A DNA stretch of 10,826 nt, taken from contig JACQVM010000219.1 in NCBI GenBank assembly GCA_016209785.1, positions 1 to 10,826 of the forward strand. Reading direction: 5' to 3'. Made by a program: the position numbers and the translations under genes. Source of the stretch: Candidatus Melainabacteria bacterium (lineage in GTDB: Bacteria; Cyanobacteriota; Vampirovibrionia; Obscuribacterales; Obscuribacteraceae). Below, piece by piece: positions 1,449 through 8,617 of this stretch. Each line of letters opens with the position of its first letter. Position 1 is the first letter of the stretch. The notes beneath the pieces were generated by a model, which was given only the letters and a program-made list of their open reading frames with translations, was not told the origin of the DNA and did not search any database.

Positions 1449-1454
1449 AGGAGG
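1449..1454 (+). promoter_or_regulatory. consensus ribosome-binding site AGGAGG before an ATA codon
   Basis: A perfect AGGAGG lies exactly 8 nt upstream of an in-frame ATA codon at 1463-1465. No ATG, GTG or TTG in the kinase frame lies at a suitable distance. The nominal TTG start at 1340 has no such site. This suggests that translation of the kinase begins at the ATA. Confidence 0.6.
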
Positions 1455-1462
1455 TTTTCTCA

Positions 1463-2386
1463 ATAGCTAAGACGTTTCACGTTATTGAAGTAGATGAGGC
1501 AAGAGCTGAGGTTTGGGAACCTGTTGGCAAGAAGCAGAAGTTTTGGTTTGCTGACCCTACCTTGGGACGTTGTCTTTTCAAGTATTCCCGGCAGGCTACA
1601 GGTGAGCACTGGTCGGAGAAGATAGCCTGTGAGCTGTGCTCTCTCTTGAATTTGCCTCATGCACACTATGAGCTGGCTGTAAGCAGACGTGGCAGAGGTA
1701 ATGTTTCTGTCTCGTTTTGTGATCAAAGCAGCGAGTTAATTCTTGGGAATGAATACCTTAGTCAGTTTTGCTCTGACTACGATACTGAAGCCACCTACAG
1801 GCATTCTAAGCATACCCTGAACCTTGTGTTTACGGCGCTATCTCATCTTGAGCCACCCAAGGACTGTGTATTACCGGCAGGGATAACAACCGCCAGTGAT
1901 GTATTTGTTGGCTATCTTTTACTGGATGCCTGGATAGGCAATACAGATCGCCACCACTTAAACTGGGGCTGCGTGCGTCATTCGGTTGCGCATCCAACAC
2001 AGAAAGTGACCTTACATTTAGCTCCAACTTTTGATCATGCCTCGAGTTTAGGCCGAGAATTACAAGATGAACAACGAAAGCTCAAATTGAACACCCACGA
2101 CATAAGAGGGACAGTTTCGGTGTATGCAAAACGATGCAGGTCAGCATTCTACGACAAAGAGACTAATAAGAGTCCTATGACTTCTCTTGAGGCTTTCACA
2201 CAAGCGGCTCAGGTGCTGCCAGACGCTGCCGAGACTTGGATGGTACAACTTGAGAAGATTTCGTGTAATGATACTCTTAGGCTGTTTGAACAGATACCCG
2301 ATGACCTGATCTCACCTGAGGCTATTCAGTTTGCCCAAGAACTTCTGGACATAAACAGACAGCGCTTGTTGAAAAAGGGGATATGA
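1463..2386 (+). CDS. HipA/HipT-like Ser/Thr kinase, putative toxin
   Basis: The frame is open from a TTG at 1340 (348 aa), but the better-supported start is ATA at 1463 (307 aa), numbered here. Homology-like sequence begins at about residue 5 (FHVIEVDEARAEVWEP). Kinase features of the HipA_C family are all present: the nucleotide-binding lysine in LFKYSR (K40), the EHWSEKIACEL helix (48-58), the catalytic loop GNTDRHHLNWG (159-169, D162) and the metal-binding APTFDHASSLG (D191). It therefore looks catalytically competent. It lacks the N-terminal HipS-like subdomain of classical HipA, as in three-gene hipBST systems; that region appears to be in the next gene, which it overlaps by ATGA. Known HipA and HipT phosphorylate aminoacyl-tRNA synthetases; the target here is unknown. 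Inferred role: cytosolic growth-inhibiting toxin or abortive-defence kinase. Confidence 0.82.
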   Translation: MAKTFHVIEVDEARAEVWEPVGKKQKFWFADPTLGRCLFKYSRQATGEHWSEKIACELCSLLNLPHAHYELAVSRRGRGNVSVSFCDQSSELILGNEYLSQFCSDYDTEATYRHSKHTLNLVFTALSHLEPPKDCVLPAGITTASDVFVGYLLLDAWIGNTDRHHLNWGCVRHSVAHPTQKVTLHLAPTFDHASSLGRELQDEQRKLKLNTHDIRGTVSVYAKRCRSAFYDKETNKSPMTSLEAFTQAAQVLPDAAETWMVQLEKISCNDTLRLFEQIPDDLISPEAIQFAQELLDINRQRLLKKGI

Positions 2387-3138
2387 GCAACATGAAGACC
2401 AGATCATTGTACGTTGCCTGGCAGGATAAGTTAACCCGAGCCTGGTTTCCTATTGGAAAGCTCATGTTTGATGGGCTGAAATTTAGATTTGTATATACAA
2501 AAGGGGTGATTGAGGCTCGTCAGCAATGTGGGTTTGAATCTTTACAATCTTTCCCGGACATTTACAGAACCTACGAATCCGAAAAATTGTTCCCTGTGTT
2601 TTCCAACCGGGTCCTGTCGCCGTCCAGGGAGGACTACCCTAGTTTTGTCGATTGGTGTGATTTGTCACGCGGGTTGAAGGACCCTGTGGCTTTGCTTTCT
2701 CGCAGTGGTGGTGAGCGTGAGACTGATGCTTTGCAGGTGTTTCCAATTCCAGAGCCGGAGAATGGACAATATCAAATTCACTTTTTCGCCCATGGTATTC
2801 GGCATTGTGAGGGGGCTAGCAAGCGTATAGAGGGGTTGTCGCCTGGTGATCCTTTGCAGTTAGTGCCAGAGCTAGATAATCCACAGGACCCGTTGGCTAT
2901 CAAGCTAGTGGCTGAAGACTCACCAATTGGTTATTGTCCTCGTTTTATCGTTAAGGACTTGCATAAGCTGCAGCGGTTGTGTGAGAAGGACATCAGAGTG
3001 TCGGTAGAGAAAGTTAATCCAGCTCCTACGCCAGTGCAGTTTCGATTGCTGTGTCGTTTAGTCTCACCCTGGCCAAATGAGTTTCAACCCTTTTCTGAAG
3101 AACATTATGGGGCTCTTGCTCCTAAGGTCGCGGCTTGA
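2383..3138 (+). CDS. HipS-like plus HIRAN domain protein, putative antitoxin
   Basis: The predicted product is 251 aa. Its ATG overlaps the kinase stop (ATGA at 2383-2386), behind AAGGGG, so the two are probably translationally coupled. Residues about 8-95 (LYVAWQDKLTRAWFPIGKL, then FRFVYTKGVIEA, then LFPVFSNRVLSPSREDY) resemble the HipS/HipA N-terminal subdomain. Residues about 130-228 form a HIRAN domain: FFAHGIRH, GDPLQLVPELDNPQDPLAIKL and IGYCPRF. HIRAN domains bind DNA ends in the helicase HLTF/Rad5. A published phylogeny of Hip kinases (Gerdes and colleagues, from memory) described two-gene operons in which a HipS-HIRAN protein is the putative antitoxin. Inferred: it restrains the kinase and may link release to DNA ends or damage. 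No helix-turn-helix domain is seen, so autoregulation is unclear. Confidence 0.8.
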   Translation: MSNMKTRSLYVAWQDKLTRAWFPIGKLMFDGLKFRFVYTKGVIEARQQCGFESLQSFPDIYRTYESEKLFPVFSNRVLSPSREDYPSFVDWCDLSRGLKDPVALLSRSGGERETDALQVFPIPEPENGQYQIHFFAHGIRHCEGASKRIEGLSPGDPLQLVPELDNPQDPLAIKLVAEDSPIGYCPRFIVKDLHKLQRLCEKDIRVSVEKVNPAPTPVQFRLLCRLVSPWPNEFQPFSEEHYGALAPKVAA

Positions 3139-3141
3139 TGG

Positions 3142-3564
3142 TCAGGGTTGAACATCTGTGCCAACCTCGCACCGTTGCCGAAATTCTGCCAGCTGTCTTT
3201 CCGCCAACTGCCCCCTCAGCCACCTTGCATCTGTCCCACTTTGTCCATCATCAAGCTTGTATGCATGGTGGCACTCTCGGTGCTGACACTTAAGCATTGG
3301 TGTCAATCTCCCCACGAGTCTGATGTAGTAGCCAAGCTTTGCATAGGGGCCGTCAGGGGTGGAACAGTGTGCTGTTCTGTGGCCATCACCGCCGCCGGCG
3401 CCGTGCAAATGCCAACAGTGGCAGTATAGGCACCAGACAGCTAGCTGACAGCCATCCGTATTATAGGCGGGCAAGATTGGGATGCCTCTCTCGTCGAAGC
3501 CTAGAGGCTGACAGTCTCTGCACATATGGATTTCCAAGATTGCTTTTAAAATGGATGATTGCAT
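3142..3564 (-). CDS. zinc-ribbon-like hypothetical protein, coupled to primase-helicase
   Basis: The predicted product is 140 aa. The ATG at 3564 lies one base after the stop of the upstream primase-helicase, with GGGGA from that gene's last codons as ribosome-binding site; the two form an operon. The core is a Cys/His-rich stretch: WCLYCHCWHLHG (44-55), then GHRTAHC (61-67), then SPY-like DGPY and GYY. A second pair of cysteines (C15, C18) precedes it and C93/C98 follow. The pattern WCxxCxxWHxHG...GHRxAHC recalls uncharacterised phage and plasmid proteins, as I remember them mainly from Actinobacteria. No enzyme motif, signal peptide or membrane segment is seen. The C-terminal 30 residues look helical. 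A nucleic-acid-binding accessory to replication is inferred from position only. It ends 3 bp from the converging HipS-HIRAN gene. Confidence 0.7.
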   Translation of the reverse strand: MQSSILKAILEIHMCRDCQPLGFDERGIPILPAYNTDGCQLAVWCLYCHCWHLHGAGGGDGHRTAHCSTPDGPYAKLGYYIRLVGRLTPMLKCQHRECHHAYKLDDGQSGTDARWLRGQLAERQLAEFRQRCEVGTDVQP

Positions 3565-3565
3565 A

Positions 3566-6274
3566 TTAGTCCCCTAGAATTTTTGATGAAATGACGTAAA
3601 CCCGTTTCGGTCCCAGCTCCGGGAGCCTCTCAAGGCGCTGCTTCTTGCCATCATCCCCGCATACCAGAAAATCTCGTTGTACCAATAGGCGCGAAACCTC
3701 ACGTGGGTCGAAGCCTTTGCAAACCTCATTTCTGAAAGCCTCAGGAAAGATCAAAAACTCACTTTCGCCTGTGGTAGTAGTCCGCCTGAAGCCGGCACGA
3801 TTGATAATAATTCGTACATCGTCGCGTTCACCGATACGATTGAGCGGCACAAATCGTGCCTCACCGTGCAACTCCAGGTATTGGCGCACTTGGCTTAGCA
3901 TCTGAGTTGGCTCTAGCGCTCCAACGTCTCCGCGTGCTTGTAGCCAGGCTTTGAAGCAGACAACTGCTGACTGAGTTGCCTCACCAGCCTTCCAGCCAGT
4001 GATACCGAATGCAGTGGCCAGCTCGCCTGCAGCGGAAATCAGTGCGAATCGTCCGCCTACTCTAGTGACTTGTCCGCTTGCCCCTGCGGGTATGTAGCCC
4101 ATAAACTCTGTCCTGAGCGTGCGCACACGTTCAGGAATCGACTCAATGTTCCTGTCCACTACTCCAACGAAGCCTGGTCCAGCAGTGCCATAGTATCGGC
4201 TGGTGGTATCTTTTAAGGCTCGCGCAAATGCGTCACCGCTGGCGTACCCATGCAGGTGTTCAAATACGCCCAGTCCGGAGCCGGCGTCGGCAGGAATATC
4301 GATTAGGCGAATTTCTTGACCTGCCGTTGTACGACGCCCAGCAACGCGCACATGGTCACTTAGCCCTAGTTCACCAGAGGATAGAAATAACAAGCGCCAG
4401 GTTGCGGCACGCTTCGCCCCGCCAGCCTTAGTGGCGCGCCCCTTGCCATGACCGTTTCCAAGCATATAGGCACATAATCCAGCCTCCTGCGGATCTAGCT
4501 GCGCTAGATCATCTAATGGCAGAACCAGGTCGTTGTGCATGGCTGCGATACCCTCGAGTCCGTTTGATGTTGTACGCCAGGATCTCACAAAATCATGCGG
4601 ACCCCAGAGGCTTCCCGAAACGTGTAACAAAGTGGTTTTTCCGACGCTACTGGGTCCCTTAAGATTGAATCCCCCACACTCCTCTCCTGTGATATGGAGG
4701 AGACTTGCAGCAAAAGCAGTGGACAGGCAGAATATTAGTCGTGAATTGTTACGACAGTAGCGGGAAACACCCATTTGCCACTCATCGAAGGTCCCTGCTG
4801 GGCGGATCACATTTGGTGTAATGTCTGGCGATTGATATAGGACCTTTTCGTCAGATTCTCCTAGTGTACGATTGGGCAATACGAAACACTTCTGGTGCCA
4901 ACCTGTGCTCTGAACACACAGCGCGCGTGCTTGTGGCTGTGTGCTTTGAAGGTAAATTCCTAGTTGATTTCGCGCCCAGGTGCTGGGAGCAATTTGTAGT
5001 CCTTGATTTAATAGTGTTGCGCGACAGTCCTCACCGCTTCCCTTAAGTAACTCCATTGGCATAGACCACTGATGCTTCGTACCGTCGGGGTCAGAAAACG
5101 CTAGCAAACGACCCCAATTATTGCCGTCTTTATCCCGCGTTGACGCCACCACCTGTAAGGGTGAGCATATCCAAACACGCTTCGGCGGCTCGCCTTCATC
5201 TCCTGCTGTTAGCGCAAAGACGCCATCCTCGGTGACTGTAAAGCCCTGAGCAACCGCAGTTTTACGCTCTTTGAATGGTGTTAGCTCAATCAACACCCCT
5301 GGTTTCTGAAGAAGCTCCTGCACGAAGCCTGTTGTCCATCCTGCTATGACTGCATCGGCGGCATCAAAACCAGTTGATAGCATAAGTCCGGCCTCGCGGC
5401 CAAGCAGCTCGACATTGATGATACGTACCTCGGCAGCACCAGCTTGTGAAGCCAAGGTTGCCACGCTGGTGGCATATTTCTGTCCAGCCTGGTCGTTGTC
5501 AGGCCAAATCAGAACCTTTCGCCCAGCTAGTGGGCTGAAATCGCTTTTATGTGGTGACAGAGCACCGTTTAAGCTGGTTGTAACGATATGATCAGGGAAT
5601 AGGACGGCAGCAGCATCTGCTGCCTTTTCACCTTCAACAAAGAGCACAACTGCATTTGGTGCGCTGGTCAGTTTGTCTAGGTGAAAGAGCGGGCGCGGTT
5701 CGGGTGGTGCCTTCCAGCGCCAACCGCGCTTCCCCGCATTTTCACAAAATGTGAGGGGGGAGAACTTCTTTCCGTCTTGTGTCTCGAAGCGACATTGGAG
5801 AAGGAGCTGGGCACCTTGCTGGTCCCGATATATCCAGCAAGCCGATGGCTTGCCTAACGTGGGATGTGCATCTGGTGGTGGTGGCGCTTCGTGCGGTATC
5901 GGGAGCAAGGGATGCCAATCTCGGCTCCGAGCCTCAGCGGATAAGCTTGTCGTGACTGTTTGACTCTCTGTCAGTCCATAAACTGAGGATAGTCCAAGCA
6001 GAGTTGCAAGTGTGTGAGCGGCTTGGAGCTGAGTGTAATTATGTAAGTATGCCGTGAGCGAAACCAAATCGCCGCCTCTGTCATGCGTGGCAAAGTCTCC
6101 CCATTTACCGGACCTTAGATTCACAGAAAAACTTCCGACAGCGGCATCACTTCGGGTGGGGTTGATTGATAAATATTCATTGCCCTGCCGTTTCCCATTC
6201 GGCAAAAGGTGCCCCACAATATACTCAGCCTGCCGAAGGGCTTCTTTGCTAATGTTCTTGATAAAAATGGGCAA
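3566..6274 (-). CDS. TOPRIM-DUF927 primase-helicase, element replication protein
   Basis: The predicted product is 902 aa. The start is TTG at 6274 (complement of CAA at 6272-6274), with AGAGG 7 nt upstream and a stop in frame not far before; no ATG fits. Residues about 15-95 resemble a primase N-terminal region (KWGDFATHDRGGDLVSLTAYL) but lack the zinc-binding cysteines of CHC2 domains. A TOPRIM domain follows at about 205-290, with VEGEKAADA (E214) and the acidic IWPDNDQAG (D259, D261). The DUF927 helicase part spans about 330-700, with Walker A GPSSVGKTT (540-548), Walker B-like LVLPLDDL (583-590) and a sensor-like LLFLSSGE. The C-terminal 200 residues may be a DNA-binding region. Such fusions replicate plasmids, satellites and integrative elements; it would prime and unwind DNA of the excised element in the cytosol. 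Confidence 0.88.
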   Translation of the reverse strand: MPIFIKNISKEALRQAEYIVGHLLPNGKRQGNEYLSINPTRSDAAVGSFSVNLRSGKWGDFATHDRGGDLVSLTAYLHNYTQLQAAHTLATLLGLSSVYGLTESQTVTTSLSAEARSRDWHPLLPIPHEAPPPPDAHPTLGKPSACWIYRDQQGAQLLLQCRFETQDGKKFSPLTFCENAGKRGWRWKAPPEPRPLFHLDKLTSAPNAVVLFVEGEKAADAAAVLFPDHIVTTSLNGALSPHKSDFSPLAGRKVLIWPDNDQAGQKYATSVATLASQAGAAEVRIINVELLGREAGLMLSTGFDAADAVIAGWTTGFVQELLQKPGVLIELTPFKERKTAVAQGFTVTEDGVFALTAGDEGEPPKRVWICSPLQVVASTRDKDGNNWGRLLAFSDPDGTKHQWSMPMELLKGSGEDCRATLLNQGLQIAPSTWARNQLGIYLQSTQPQARALCVQSTGWHQKCFVLPNRTLGESDEKVLYQSPDITPNVIRPAGTFDEWQMGVSRYCRNNSRLIFCLSTAFAASLLHITGEECGGFNLKGPSSVGKTTLLHVSGSLWGPHDFVRSWRTTSNGLEGIAAMHNDLVLPLDDLAQLDPQEAGLCAYMLGNGHGKGRATKAGGAKRAATWRLLFLSSGELGLSDHVRVAGRRTTAGQEIRLIDIPADAGSGLGVFEHLHGYASGDAFARALKDTTSRYYGTAGPGFVGVVDRNIESIPERVRTLRTEFMGYIPAGASGQVTRVGGRFALISAAGELATAFGITGWKAGEATQSAVVCFKAWLQARGDVGALEPTQMLSQVRQYLELHGEARFVPLNRIGERDDVRIIINRAGFRRTTTTGESEFLIFPEAFRNEVCKGFDPREVSRLLVQRDFLVCGDDGKKQRLERLPELGPKRVYVISSKILGD

Positions 6275-7135
6275 ATCGTCGCCTCTGGGGATGACACTAA
6301 GGGGCGCTATCTTTTAAATTCAGCTGGCAACCACGAGGCAATGTTTAGGGATTTGCTTGCTATTCGGCTGTCTAATCAGGTAGCCGCTTTGCAGTGGATT
6401 CATCAGTGGGGATTTCCCACCGCCTATATTCAGCTCGCTATTGATGATTGGCTGACTGCAATTTGTTCAATACAGTGGCTGTGGGATTTCAGCAGGGCTG
6501 TTCTTAATACTGACTATGCCAAGCTCAAGCAGTGGCAATACATGCTTCAGCCACCTGATCTCGCACTCCTGAACTTGCCAGGAGCGGATCCCGCATCGGT
6601 GTATGTGACGTTTTCCCCAAACCCGGCCAAGCCAATTGCAGATTGGAGGGAGTTTATTGTTATGTCTGACGGTCCATCTTATCCGAGAGGGAAATTGGTT
6701 GGGGTTAGTATCGGGAGCCCACAGTTTTTTAAGCTGGTGTTACAGAATAGCGGTAAGGCTTGGAAAAATGATGAATGTGGTGAGTGTTTCTTTGCGGCCA
6801 AAGCCTTCCTTGTCCGAGCGTTTGACATGTTGCTCAGTGGAGTCCACCCAGCTTTTGATCTTGAATACGCGCGGAGCGAGGACTTGCACCATTGGATTCT
6901 TGTCCCTACCGAAAAAGTAACCTGTCCATGGCATGCATTAAATCTTGCACTGTACAAGCGTTTGCAAACATACCAACCACAAAGATCGTGCACAGAGTGT
7001 GACAAGATGTGGTCTCCGAAGTATAGAAGCCAACTTACCTGTTCAGGGCGTTGCAAAAAGAGAAGGCAGCGAAGATTGAAGCAAGAAGCAGGGCAACCAT
7101 CTGTAGTGCTTCAAGCACAACGCCGAGTTTTGTAA
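6209..7135 (+). CDS. CGNR/ABATE-like zinc-finger protein
   Basis: The predicted product is 308 aa from a GTG at 6209. The first in-frame ATG (6341, residue 45) has GAGG only 2 nt upstream, too close for a good ribosome-binding site. Residues just before that ATG (RYLLNSAGNHEA) look like part of the domain, so a start upstream seems likely. The N-terminal part (RDLLAIRLSNQVAALQWIHQ, then WGFP) resembles the F..L......ail.Fa..yG.L pattern of ABATE/stress-regulator-like proteins. The C-terminus has a zinc motif C261-x2-C264-x13-C278-x3-C282 followed by a basic KKRRQRRLKQ tail, like CGNR fingers. Relatives are annotated as putative transcription regulators without firm biochemistry. With the GTG start, its 5' end overlaps that of the divergent primase gene by 66 bp. 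Its stop overlaps the first TGTAACAC repeat. A regulator of element excision or replication is inferred from position only. Confidence 0.68.
   Translation: MPHNILSLPKGFFANVLDKNGQIVASGDDTKGRYLLNSAGNHEAMFRDLLAIRLSNQVAALQWIHQWGFPTAYIQLAIDDWLTAICSIQWLWDFSRAVLNTDYAKLKQWQYMLQPPDLALLNLPGADPASVYVTFSPNPAKPIADWREFIVMSDGPSYPRGKLVGVSIGSPQFFKLVLQNSGKAWKNDECGECFFAAKAFLVRAFDMLLSGVHPAFDLEYARSEDLHHWILVPTEKVTCPWHALNLALYKRLQTYQPQRSCTECDKMWSPKYRSQLTCSGRCKKRRQRRLKQEAGQPSVVLQAQRRVL
6313..6341 (-). promoter_or_regulatory. candidate promoter for the primase-helicase gene
   Basis: On the minus strand, TTGCCT (complement of 6336-6341) and TTTAAA (6313-6318) are separated by 17 nt. Each matches the sigma-70-type -35 and -10 consensus at four of six positions. 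Transcription would begin near 6306 and give a leader of about 32 nt before the TTG start. It lies inside the long form of the divergent gene. Moderate to weak evidence. Confidence 0.33.
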
Positions 7136-7293: not shown

Positions 7294-8520
7294 ATGGGGA
7301 TTTTCCAAGACAAAGAGACCGGACACTGGGCCATAAGGCTCAAGTATTATGGCCGCGACATGAAGAAAGTCATTGGCCCTGATAGGCGTAAGGCTGAGTT
7401 AGCGCTAGCTGAAATCAGACAAGAGATCAAGCTTGCCAAACTTGCTGGGCAGCACTGGCAGGGGTTTGAGAAACTCCAGCGTGTGCAAAAACCAAAGACA
7501 TTTGCCGAGGCAGCCAGGGATTTTCTCGCCGAACGAGTTGGATATAAGTCTTCCACAATAGCGTCCTGGAACTCAATCTTTCGCAGCTACCTGCTAGCTG
7601 AGTTTGGACGAACACCTCTGTCAGTTATCACTGAATCCCATCTCCGCAAATTTCAAGCCAGGCTGCAAATGACTACTGTCCGGGGCTCCAATAAGCCGCT
7701 TACAGAATCCCGGATAAATACAATCATGCAGCCACTACGGAGCGTCCTGGCACAGGCTTACCGCAATGGCGAGCTACCACGCGATCCCTCGCTTGCCGTT
7801 AAGCGTTTGGAAGAACCTCGGGCGGGTATCGATCCCCTTTCAGAGGAAGAACTGCAACTTGCACTGTCTTATATAGACTCACATTATCAACCACTCTTTA
7901 CGGTACTGGCTTACTCTGGCGCCAGACCTAATGAGCTGCTGGCGCTGCGCTGGTCCGATATTGACTGGAACAGCAAGTCCATTTCCATAACTAAGGGTAG
8001 GGTCAGGGGGCATGAGGGTCGACCTAAGACCAGATCGAGTGAAAGAACAATTCCGCTTCTGCCACCAGCAGAGCAGGCGCTCAACGAACTCAAAGGGCGT
8101 GGCGTCAGATCGTTGGATGGCTATGTGTTCACCAAGCCTAATGGCAATCCAATTGATAAGCACCTTGACAGAATCTGGGAACGGGCACTGCGAAAAGCCG
8201 GACTTCGCCACCGCCCGTCATACCAACTGAGGCACACCTTCGCTACTCAATGCATAGTGAAGAGCTTTCCATTACCGTTTATTGCCAAAGTACTCGGACA
8301 CTCAACAATTGATACCTTAATCCGTCACTATGCTGGTTGGATAGATAGTGCCACCAAAGAACAGGAAAAAAGACTGATGGAATCCTTTGCCGAAATCCCG
8401 GCTAAAATGACTACCCCAAAAATCGCTCTCAGCAACAAAAAGGGGGAAGGAAAGGTGGAAGGTCGTCGAAAAACCAAAGTTTCCCCAGTCAGGAAATCAC
8501 TCACCAGGTTGGAGTTTTAG
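7294..8520 (+). CDS. int: tyrosine recombinase (site-specific integrase)
   Basis: The predicted product is 408 aa from an ATG behind AAGGAAG. Residues 1-50 resemble an arm-binding N-terminal domain (GHWAIRLKYYGRD). Residues about 68-160 form the core-binding SAM-like domain. The catalytic domain has Arg in SGARPNELLALRW (R211), Lys in GRPKTRSSERTIPL (K245), Y310-x-x-R313-H314 in SYQLRHTFAT, His in LGHSTIDT (H336) and the nucleophile Tyr in RHYAGWI (Y346). The first position of the HxxR box is Tyr rather than His, a variant I recall in other phage-type integrases, so activity is plausible. A basic tail (about 370-408) extends beyond the catalytic fold. The gene lies downstream of the TGTAAC repeats and ends 20 bp from the tRNA-His gene. 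It would integrate and excise the element at that tRNA. Confidence 0.95.
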   Translation: MGIFQDKETGHWAIRLKYYGRDMKKVIGPDRRKAELALAEIRQEIKLAKLAGQHWQGFEKLQRVQKPKTFAEAARDFLAERVGYKSSTIASWNSIFRSYLLAEFGRTPLSVITESHLRKFQARLQMTTVRGSNKPLTESRINTIMQPLRSVLAQAYRNGELPRDPSLAVKRLEEPRAGIDPLSEEELQLALSYIDSHYQPLFTVLAYSGARPNELLALRWSDIDWNSKSISITKGRVRGHEGRPKTRSSERTIPLLPPAEQALNELKGRGVRSLDGYVFTKPNGNPIDKHLDRIWERALRKAGLRHRPSYQLRHTFATQCIVKSFPLPFIAKVLGHSTIDTLIRHYAGWIDSATKEQEKRLMESFAEIPAKMTTPKIALSNKKGEGKVEGRRKTKVSPVRKSLTRLEF

Positions 8521-8539: not shown

Positions 8540-8565
8540 TGGGGCAGACGAGGGGATTTGAACCC
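8540..8565. mobile_element. inferred attachment site at the tRNA-His 3' end
   Basis: The integrase gene directly abuts the 3' side of an intact tRNA gene, the usual arrangement of a tRNA-targeting integrative element. The att core would lie in the T-arm and acceptor 3' half and mark the element's right end. No second copy of this sequence was found elsewhere in the window, so the core's exact length cannot be defined and the other end lies outside. Confidence 0.55.
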
Positions 8566-8617
8566 CCGAATACCGGAACCACAATCCGGGGCCTTAGACC
8601 GCTTGGCGACGCCTGCC
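8540..8617 (-). tRNA. tRNA-His (GTG anticodon)
   Basis: The minus strand folds into a complete cloverleaf. The acceptor stem has 8 pairs including the tRNA-His-specific G-1:C73, with one G-U. The D stem is GCC/GGC. The anticodon stem CCGGA/TCCGG encloses the loop TTGTGGT, with anticodon GTG decoding CAC/CAU. The T-loop is TTCAAAT, and CCA is encoded (complement of 8540-8542). The 3' end faces the integrase gene and remains intact, so the tRNA stays functional after integration. Confidence 0.97.

Follow-up and report, generated by a model that had tools for sequence, protein, structure and literature searches.

The window, that is, the whole 10,826-nt stretch of DNA analysed here, is contig C147 of an assembly that is 66.6% complete and divided into 449 contigs. 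From left to right it carries a remnant of an IS66 transposase, two small ORFs, a kinase gene and a HipS-HIRAN gene (hipN); 3' of the latter lie the genes for a Cys/His-rich small protein, a Toprim-DUF927 primase-helicase, a 308-aa protein and a tyrosine integrase, followed by tRNA-His and feoB (Table 1). There are 36 ORFs of at least 60 aa in the window, most of which overlap the 10 proteins that we scanned with Pfam. Consistent with a first-pass annotation made from the sequence, the kinase gene and the next gene overlap by the four letters ATGA on the same strand, and no HipB-like DNA-binding gene was found, as none of the 10 window proteins scanned had any Pfam HTH match.

Table 1. Coordinates of the features in the window, with the evidence for each.
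Feature	Position	Strand	Evidence
AGGAGG Shine-Dalgarno	1449..1454	+	Read from sequence; 8 nt 5' of ATA start
HipI-type Ser/Thr kinase, 307 aa, ATA start	1463..2386	+	Pfam, PADLOC PDC-M03A, phrog_8728, PDB profile, alignments
ATGA shared by the kinase stop and the HipN start	2383..2386	+	ORF coordinates, sequence
HipN, HipS-like + HIRAN, 251 aa, putative antitoxin	2383..3138	+	Pfam, PDC-M03B, phrog_8026, AlphaFold, Foldseek, hhalign
HipS-like domain, ~residues 7-121; invariant W13, R76, R82, D115	2401..2745	+	hhalign, alignments
HIRAN domain, ~residues 129-229	2767..3069	+	Pfam, AlphaFold, Foldseek, HMMER alignment
Small Cys/His-rich protein, 140 aa, without family match; probable element gene	3142..3564	-	Pfam/PHROG
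Toprim + DUF927 primase-helicase of the element	3566..6274	-	Pfam DUF927 5.4e-86; phrog_1139 DNA primase
308-aa protein, C-terminal Cys motif; start uncertain, overlaps primase ORF	6209..7135	+	ORF list, Pfam/PHROG
Tyrosine integrase	7294..8520	+	Pfam/PHROG
tRNA-His, presumed attachment site, 3' end toward integrase	8540..8616	-	tRNA prediction

The kinase gave a Pfam HipA_C match of 5.7e-5, which is under the curated cut-off, a PADLOC match to PDC-M03A of 1.5e-109 and a match to PHROG family phrog_8728. The residues that the first-pass annotation had read as nucleotide-binding (K40), catalytic (D162) and metal-binding (D191) are indeed invariant in a seven-sequence alignment, and among 94 of the 96 representatives, window included (L084 and L135 being set aside as incomplete), K40, D162 and N167 are kept in 94/94 and D191 in 93/94. 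The claim that the kinase lacks the HipS-like N-terminal subdomain also held, the Gly-loop region being reached already near residue 22. At position 23, beside the loop glycine, the window has Lys; Thr (63/94) or Ser (15/94) occupies this place in 78 of the 94 sequences. When PDB sequences were compared with a seven-member kinase profile, CtkA of Helicobacter pylori (PDB 3akj/3akk) came first at 1.3e-17 and is the closest solved kinase by sequence profile, followed by Legionella HipT at 0.0081. For a related fusion protein described below, L069, CtkA is the closest solved kinase by fold as well; it differs in that its PDB title names a proinflammatory kinase. The earlier label 'HipT-like' is loose, given the E value of 0.008 for HipT against 1.3e-17 for CtkA and a gene order with the kinase first, as in hipIN, and not HipS first. 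Membership of HipT was ruled out by gene order, the missing HipB and the profile scores.

No ATG, GTG or TTG stands at the natural start of the kinase. The frame opens with ATA at 1463, behind a perfect AGGAGG, and the ORF tool places the start at TTG 1340 instead. We considered rare starts as a family trait and ruled this out, since a canonical start lies within 60 nt of the expected place in 90 of 92 kinases; the ATA start of the window is an exception in the family. The fusion L069, which is outside the 92, apparently begins at ATC (~9938). Rare start codons could hold toxin output low.

HipN matched PDC-M03B at 2.3e-87 and PHROG family phrog_8026. Its N-terminal half was aligned by hhalign with 21 HipA/HipS N-domains at a probability of 95.8% (E 7.3e-9), compared with 0.4% for the HIRAN half used as a control against the same 21 domains, and the HIRAN domain itself was matched by Pfam at 5.3e-8, above the cut-off. 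These results agree with the earlier claim that the subdomain missing from the kinase is joined to a HIRAN domain in the next gene. An AlphaFold2 model of HipN from a 70-row alignment reached a mean pLDDT of 95.2 and a pTM of 0.90, and Foldseek with this model returned the HIRAN of HLTF (4s0n, 5.1e-5) and also lp_0118 (3k2y); no HipA/HipS match for the N-terminal half was present in the best 50 of 298. Structure prediction, proposed by the first-pass annotation as a check, recovered the HIRAN fold and, within those best 50 of 298 matches, not the HipA/HipS fold.

Across 70 HipN sequences W13, R76, R82, D115 and G183 are invariant, and N166 (69/70), D169 (68/70) and A172 (68/70) nearly so. In the HMMER alignment F220 falls, in a weak stretch, on the Phe of the HLTF NAF motif, and F or Y occupies this position in 49/70 sequences. 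This Phe142 of HLTF has been tied to duplex binding and is described as lacking in most bacterial HIRANs (PMC8262856). As for the HipS-like half, HipS of hipBST has been reported to be an inhibitor whose Glu63 and Trp65 are positioned at the Gly-rich loop of HipT, Trp65 not being universal among HipS proteins (PMC10627512). Five HipA/HipS comparison sequences (L240-L244) carry a PEGW motif, which we took for the place of Glu63/Trp65, and in our alignment to this PEGW-type motif S79 and S81 of the window HipN align with the two residues. The HipN residues at the PEGW place are variable, and the invariant arginines 76 and 82 lie around that loop.

Taken together, the gene pair is a member of the predicted hipIN organisation (Gerdes et al. 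2021) and not a new class. The first-pass annotation had spoken of a predicted, little-studied class of Hip kinase operons; the domain reading, the missing HipB and the description of hipIN in PMC8262856 all agree with this. Gerdes et al. named hipIN, predicted HipN to be the antitoxin, gave the short kinases of these Hip families as 279-321 aa, named a Proteobacteria/Cyanobacteria subclade of HipI, and had already proposed activation of hipIN by phage DNA ends (PMC8262856). In the window, as in hipIN, the kinase gene comes first, with 307 aa from 1463 and no N-subdomain-1, and the gene directly downstream encodes a HipS-like N-terminal domain and a C-terminal HIRAN. The window pair differs from hipIN in Lys23, where HipI mostly has a Ser/Thr beside the Gly-rich loop, a typical and non-defining trait, and in F220, which in its weakly aligned stretch falls on the Phe142 that most bacterial HIRANs lack. 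HipBST likewise has a split kinase and a HipS-like partner; it is organised as HipB gene and order B-S-T, whereas the window has no HTH protein among the 10 scanned, the kinase first, the partner downstream instead of upstream, an added HIRAN and, by our alignment, apparently no PEGW-type loop. The HipB antitoxin and the N-subdomain-1 inside the kinase that mark HipBA are both missing from the window. HipL has the same three domains in the same order (kinase-HipS-HIRAN) in one chain, and differs in being one gene instead of two. Both window proteins match the phage defence candidate PDC-M03 (A and B) with no evident difference, and the hipIN prediction and this candidate describe one gene pair, to which PHROG families 8728 and 8026, of unassigned function, also belong. 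A literature search by the name PDC-M03 found no paper, and no experimental test of hipIN was found among the matches listed from the freely available journal literature. Within the related literature, a 2025 paper describes HipA and HIRAN genes beside DEDD dinucleases, names HipI, and refers to PADLOC papers as predicting a defence function for HipA/HIRAN genes (PMC11706625). In the DefensePredictor paper a Hip kinase pair that involves DUF3037/DUF1829 (HipAD) was validated, and a HipA kinase is said to have been validated elsewhere (PMC13092281).

We then surveyed relatives of the pair. The single window kinase found no relatives in the viral scan; with the kinase profile, viral contigs yielded 87 relatives, of which 80 were kept. 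HipN is adjacent in 74 of these 80 loci and fused in five (L069, L078-L080 and L085, three of them with equal lengths and scores), and the remaining contig, L089, is cut off just past the kinase; the kinase frame of L053 is broken. Many of the 80 are near-copies, and 38 unfused-pair representatives remain at 85% HipN identity. The scan of genome contigs gave 447 relatives, with 80 kept, 67 of them cyanobacterial by count of record titles. HipN lies downstream in 80/80, some with broken frames: L135, L145 and L160 have an interrupted kinase frame, L121 has no N-terminal part of the kinase, and in L150 and L160 the HipN frame is interrupted. In all, 159 of the 160 retained kinase loci have HipN next to the kinase or fused to it. 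A 4-nt overlap like that of the window is the commonest pair spacing (97/159, choosing the start nearest to overlap, for 159 of 167 sources with the five fusions, L089, L150 and L160 set aside). The identity matrices of kinase and HipN correlate over 94 pairs with r 0.949 (best of 500 permutations 0.18; L135 and L145 set aside), which, at the level of sequence comparison, shows common descent of the pair and not contact. In the E. coli fusion Pfam recognised the HipA N-domain at 8.3e-6 and HIRAN at 1.4e-10. The AlphaFold2 model of fusion L069 had a pLDDT of 88.0 and a pTM of 0.77, from a 29-row alignment in which some single-domain rows were stretched over both parts, and with it Foldseek found CtkA (3.5e-13), HipA, HipT and HIRAN structures.

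The two genes are not lost equally. We searched 386 genomes of the phylum, the window's own among them, at 1e-10; 23 had a match to the kinase model and 27 to the HipN model. Counting as intact those matches that cover at least 250 of 305 kinase model positions or at least 190 of 245 HipN model positions, 19/25 kinase matches and 29/30 HipN matches are intact. No intact kinase lacks an adjacent intact HipN (0/19), and 10 of 29 intact HipN lack an intact kinase, a directional loss with a two-sided sign test of 0.002 if the places are independent. Kinase remnants lie beside six of the ten lone HipN (L198, L199, L201, L209, L215 and L217); none was found at L212, L219, L220 and L225. Two kinase fragments without HipN, L188 (to ~residue 168) and L194, are neither of them intact. 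On an Oscillatoria plasmid most of the kinase has given way to an inserted ORF that looks transposase-like by eye, and HipN is whole. This is the pattern predicted by a toxin-antitoxin relation, not proof of it, and the retained lone HipN could also reflect an independent function of HipN. At L198 (1432-1584) the first 29-44 kinase residues stand inside the HipN open frame, as if an internal deletion had taken the kinase and left HipN under the kinase start.

The first-pass annotation had placed the pair on a tRNA-targeted element. The tRNA-His with its adjoining integrase agrees with this for the right-hand side; the left end lies outside the contig, and we infer that the pair sits inside the tRNA-integrating element, probably as its cargo. 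We looked for a second attachment site, but the tRNA-His 3' end has no further copy left of the integrase in the window, and none was found in the rest of the assembly when up to 3 mismatches were tolerated. The layout of the window recurs in a relative, L237, with an integrase, a DUF927 helicase and an ORF that by eye is of the Toprim type, and its element is bounded by 20/20 nt copies of a tRNA-Thr 3' end at 525 and 14634, giving ~14.1 kb (525-14653); the kinase is absent from the L237 genome, and among 60 related genomes, own included, only the window's own genome matches it. In another relative, L238, an integrase with 61% identity is likewise found at tRNA-His, next to a 689-aa ORF that matches feoB in size and position; no second att copy was found there.

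Other copies are carried by prophages, phages, plasmids and chromosomes. The 38 representative viral loci have 69 neighbour proteins, seven of which match PHROG portal families and four of which match integrases; five viral loci have a portal-size gene followed by a terminase-size gene on one strand, as in P2. Of 5,426 E. coli genomes, 21 carry a hipIN pair, a number that a second search, with matches at 80-90% identity, gave as well; 61 of the 5,426 carry the HipL fusion of phage 899. Both, in the one context of each that we inspected, lie between a replication endonuclease and a portal gene, as does the fusion in Escherichia phage 899. This endonuclease-portal site of P2 is described as a hotspot of anti-phage genes (PMC9122126, PMC9519451); the words HipA and HIRAN are absent from the main text of both papers. 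In Vibrio phages of the order Vinavirales and in a Clostridioides phage the pair lies beside an integrase, and eight plasmid records have HipN matches. Near the cyanobacterial and other genome copies we found no enrichment of PADLOC defence families over genes at least 7 kb away: at 1e-10, 63 families were listed near (97 proteins of up to 700 aa from 56 of 57 representative loci) and 89 far (97 of 144 genes at least 7 kb off), these being families listed and not protein counts, and distant genes of the same loci being a conservative control. The neighbours of the genome copies include SKI-like (7/97) and PfkB (10/97) proteins, which suggests a shared, settled chromosomal place in part of the cyanobacteria. 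On a Rhodococcus plasmid (L007 1637-6263) the pair lies between genes for a restriction specificity subunit and a DNA methyltransferase. In two E. coli P2-like prophages (L263 3356-5560, L005 3302-5506) the gene directly before the HipL fusion encodes a 3'-5' exonuclease (PF16473 in L263), an order that recalls the published diDNase-HipA-HIRAN clusters (PMC11706625).

The likeliest reading, which we favour with modest confidence, is that the pair forms a hipIN toxin-antitoxin module, the DNA-end trigger being its least supported step. By analogy with the Hip family, the free kinase, with its catalytic residues kept, would probably phosphorylate a host protein and stop growth. HipN, presumably made by translation coupled to that of the kinase, would bind it through the HipS-like domain, at the place of HipA's own N-terminal lid, and would hold it inactive; natural one-chain fusions of the same parts exist. 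To judge from its fold and motifs, the HIRAN may give HipN an affinity for free DNA ends. HipN would then be changed or removed in response to phage DNA, damage or element loss, which would free the kinase, with abortive infection or addiction as the possible outcome. HipN should make a different inhibitory contact from HipS, because the places of Glu63 and Trp65 are variable and R76 and R82 are invariant; these two arginines may have taken over the contact. The directional gene loss and the cargo positions in prophages give the toxin-antitoxin logic indirect support. Against it stand the Foldseek result for the N-terminal half of HipN, with no HipA/HipS in the best 50 of 298, the Lys23 of the window where 78/94 have Thr/Ser, and the tree-like matrix correlation, which cannot separate interaction from shared descent. 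The lack of PADLOC enrichment and the SKI-like and PfkB neighbours also speak against this reading.

HipN might instead be a targeting subunit and not an inhibitor, its HIRAN directing the kinase to stalled forks or DNA ends so that repair, replication or phage proteins would be phosphorylated there. The HIRAN fold with its conserved motifs and the natural fusions would suit such a role, and the absence of any intact kinase without HipN would equally suit an obligate activator. However, HipN without an intact kinase in 10 of 29 places would be odd for a mere activator, and HipS of hipBST is reported as an inhibitor (PMC10627512), so that we consider a targeting subunit unlikely. Slightly less probable still is a pure addiction module that keeps an integrative element, plasmid or prophage in place and has no defence role. 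Copies on plasmids and phages and the absence of defence-gene enrichment near genome copies are what such a module would lead one to expect, but the settled places suggested by the SKI/PfkB proteins beside many genome copies would have no need of addiction, and the E. coli copies sit at the P2 defence hotspot. A further possibility concerns the window copy by itself, which may be silent or attenuated, with ATA marking a decaying cargo gene or an assembly error. The start codon and an assembly only 66.6% complete in 449 contigs point that way; the perfect Shine-Dalgarno, both frames open, the kept catalytic residues and the apparently rare start codon (ATC) of fusion L069 as well make a silent copy very improbable.

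Beyond the toxin-antitoxin reading itself, we tentatively propose a wider and rather doubtful generalisation: hipIN and HipL may act as a DNA-end-sensing kinase alarm in the phage defence of P2-like, corticovirus-like and other prophages and of integrative elements. The HipS-like domain, by its two invariant arginines and not by the Glu-Trp plug of HipS, would in that case restrain a CtkA-like kinase until the HIRAN engages DNA ends. In short, a mobile element of an uncultured cyanobacterial relative carries a putative kinase toxin and a putative antitoxin with a domain of the DNA-end-binding type, which may together serve as an alarm against phages or DNA damage. The directional loss together with the E. 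coli copies at the P2 hotspot makes the hipIN prediction directly testable in a laboratory strain. Elsewhere in the host genome, an ordinary HipA-type N-terminal domain is encoded in a 464-aa open frame (G000:C32:7896-8213, L250).
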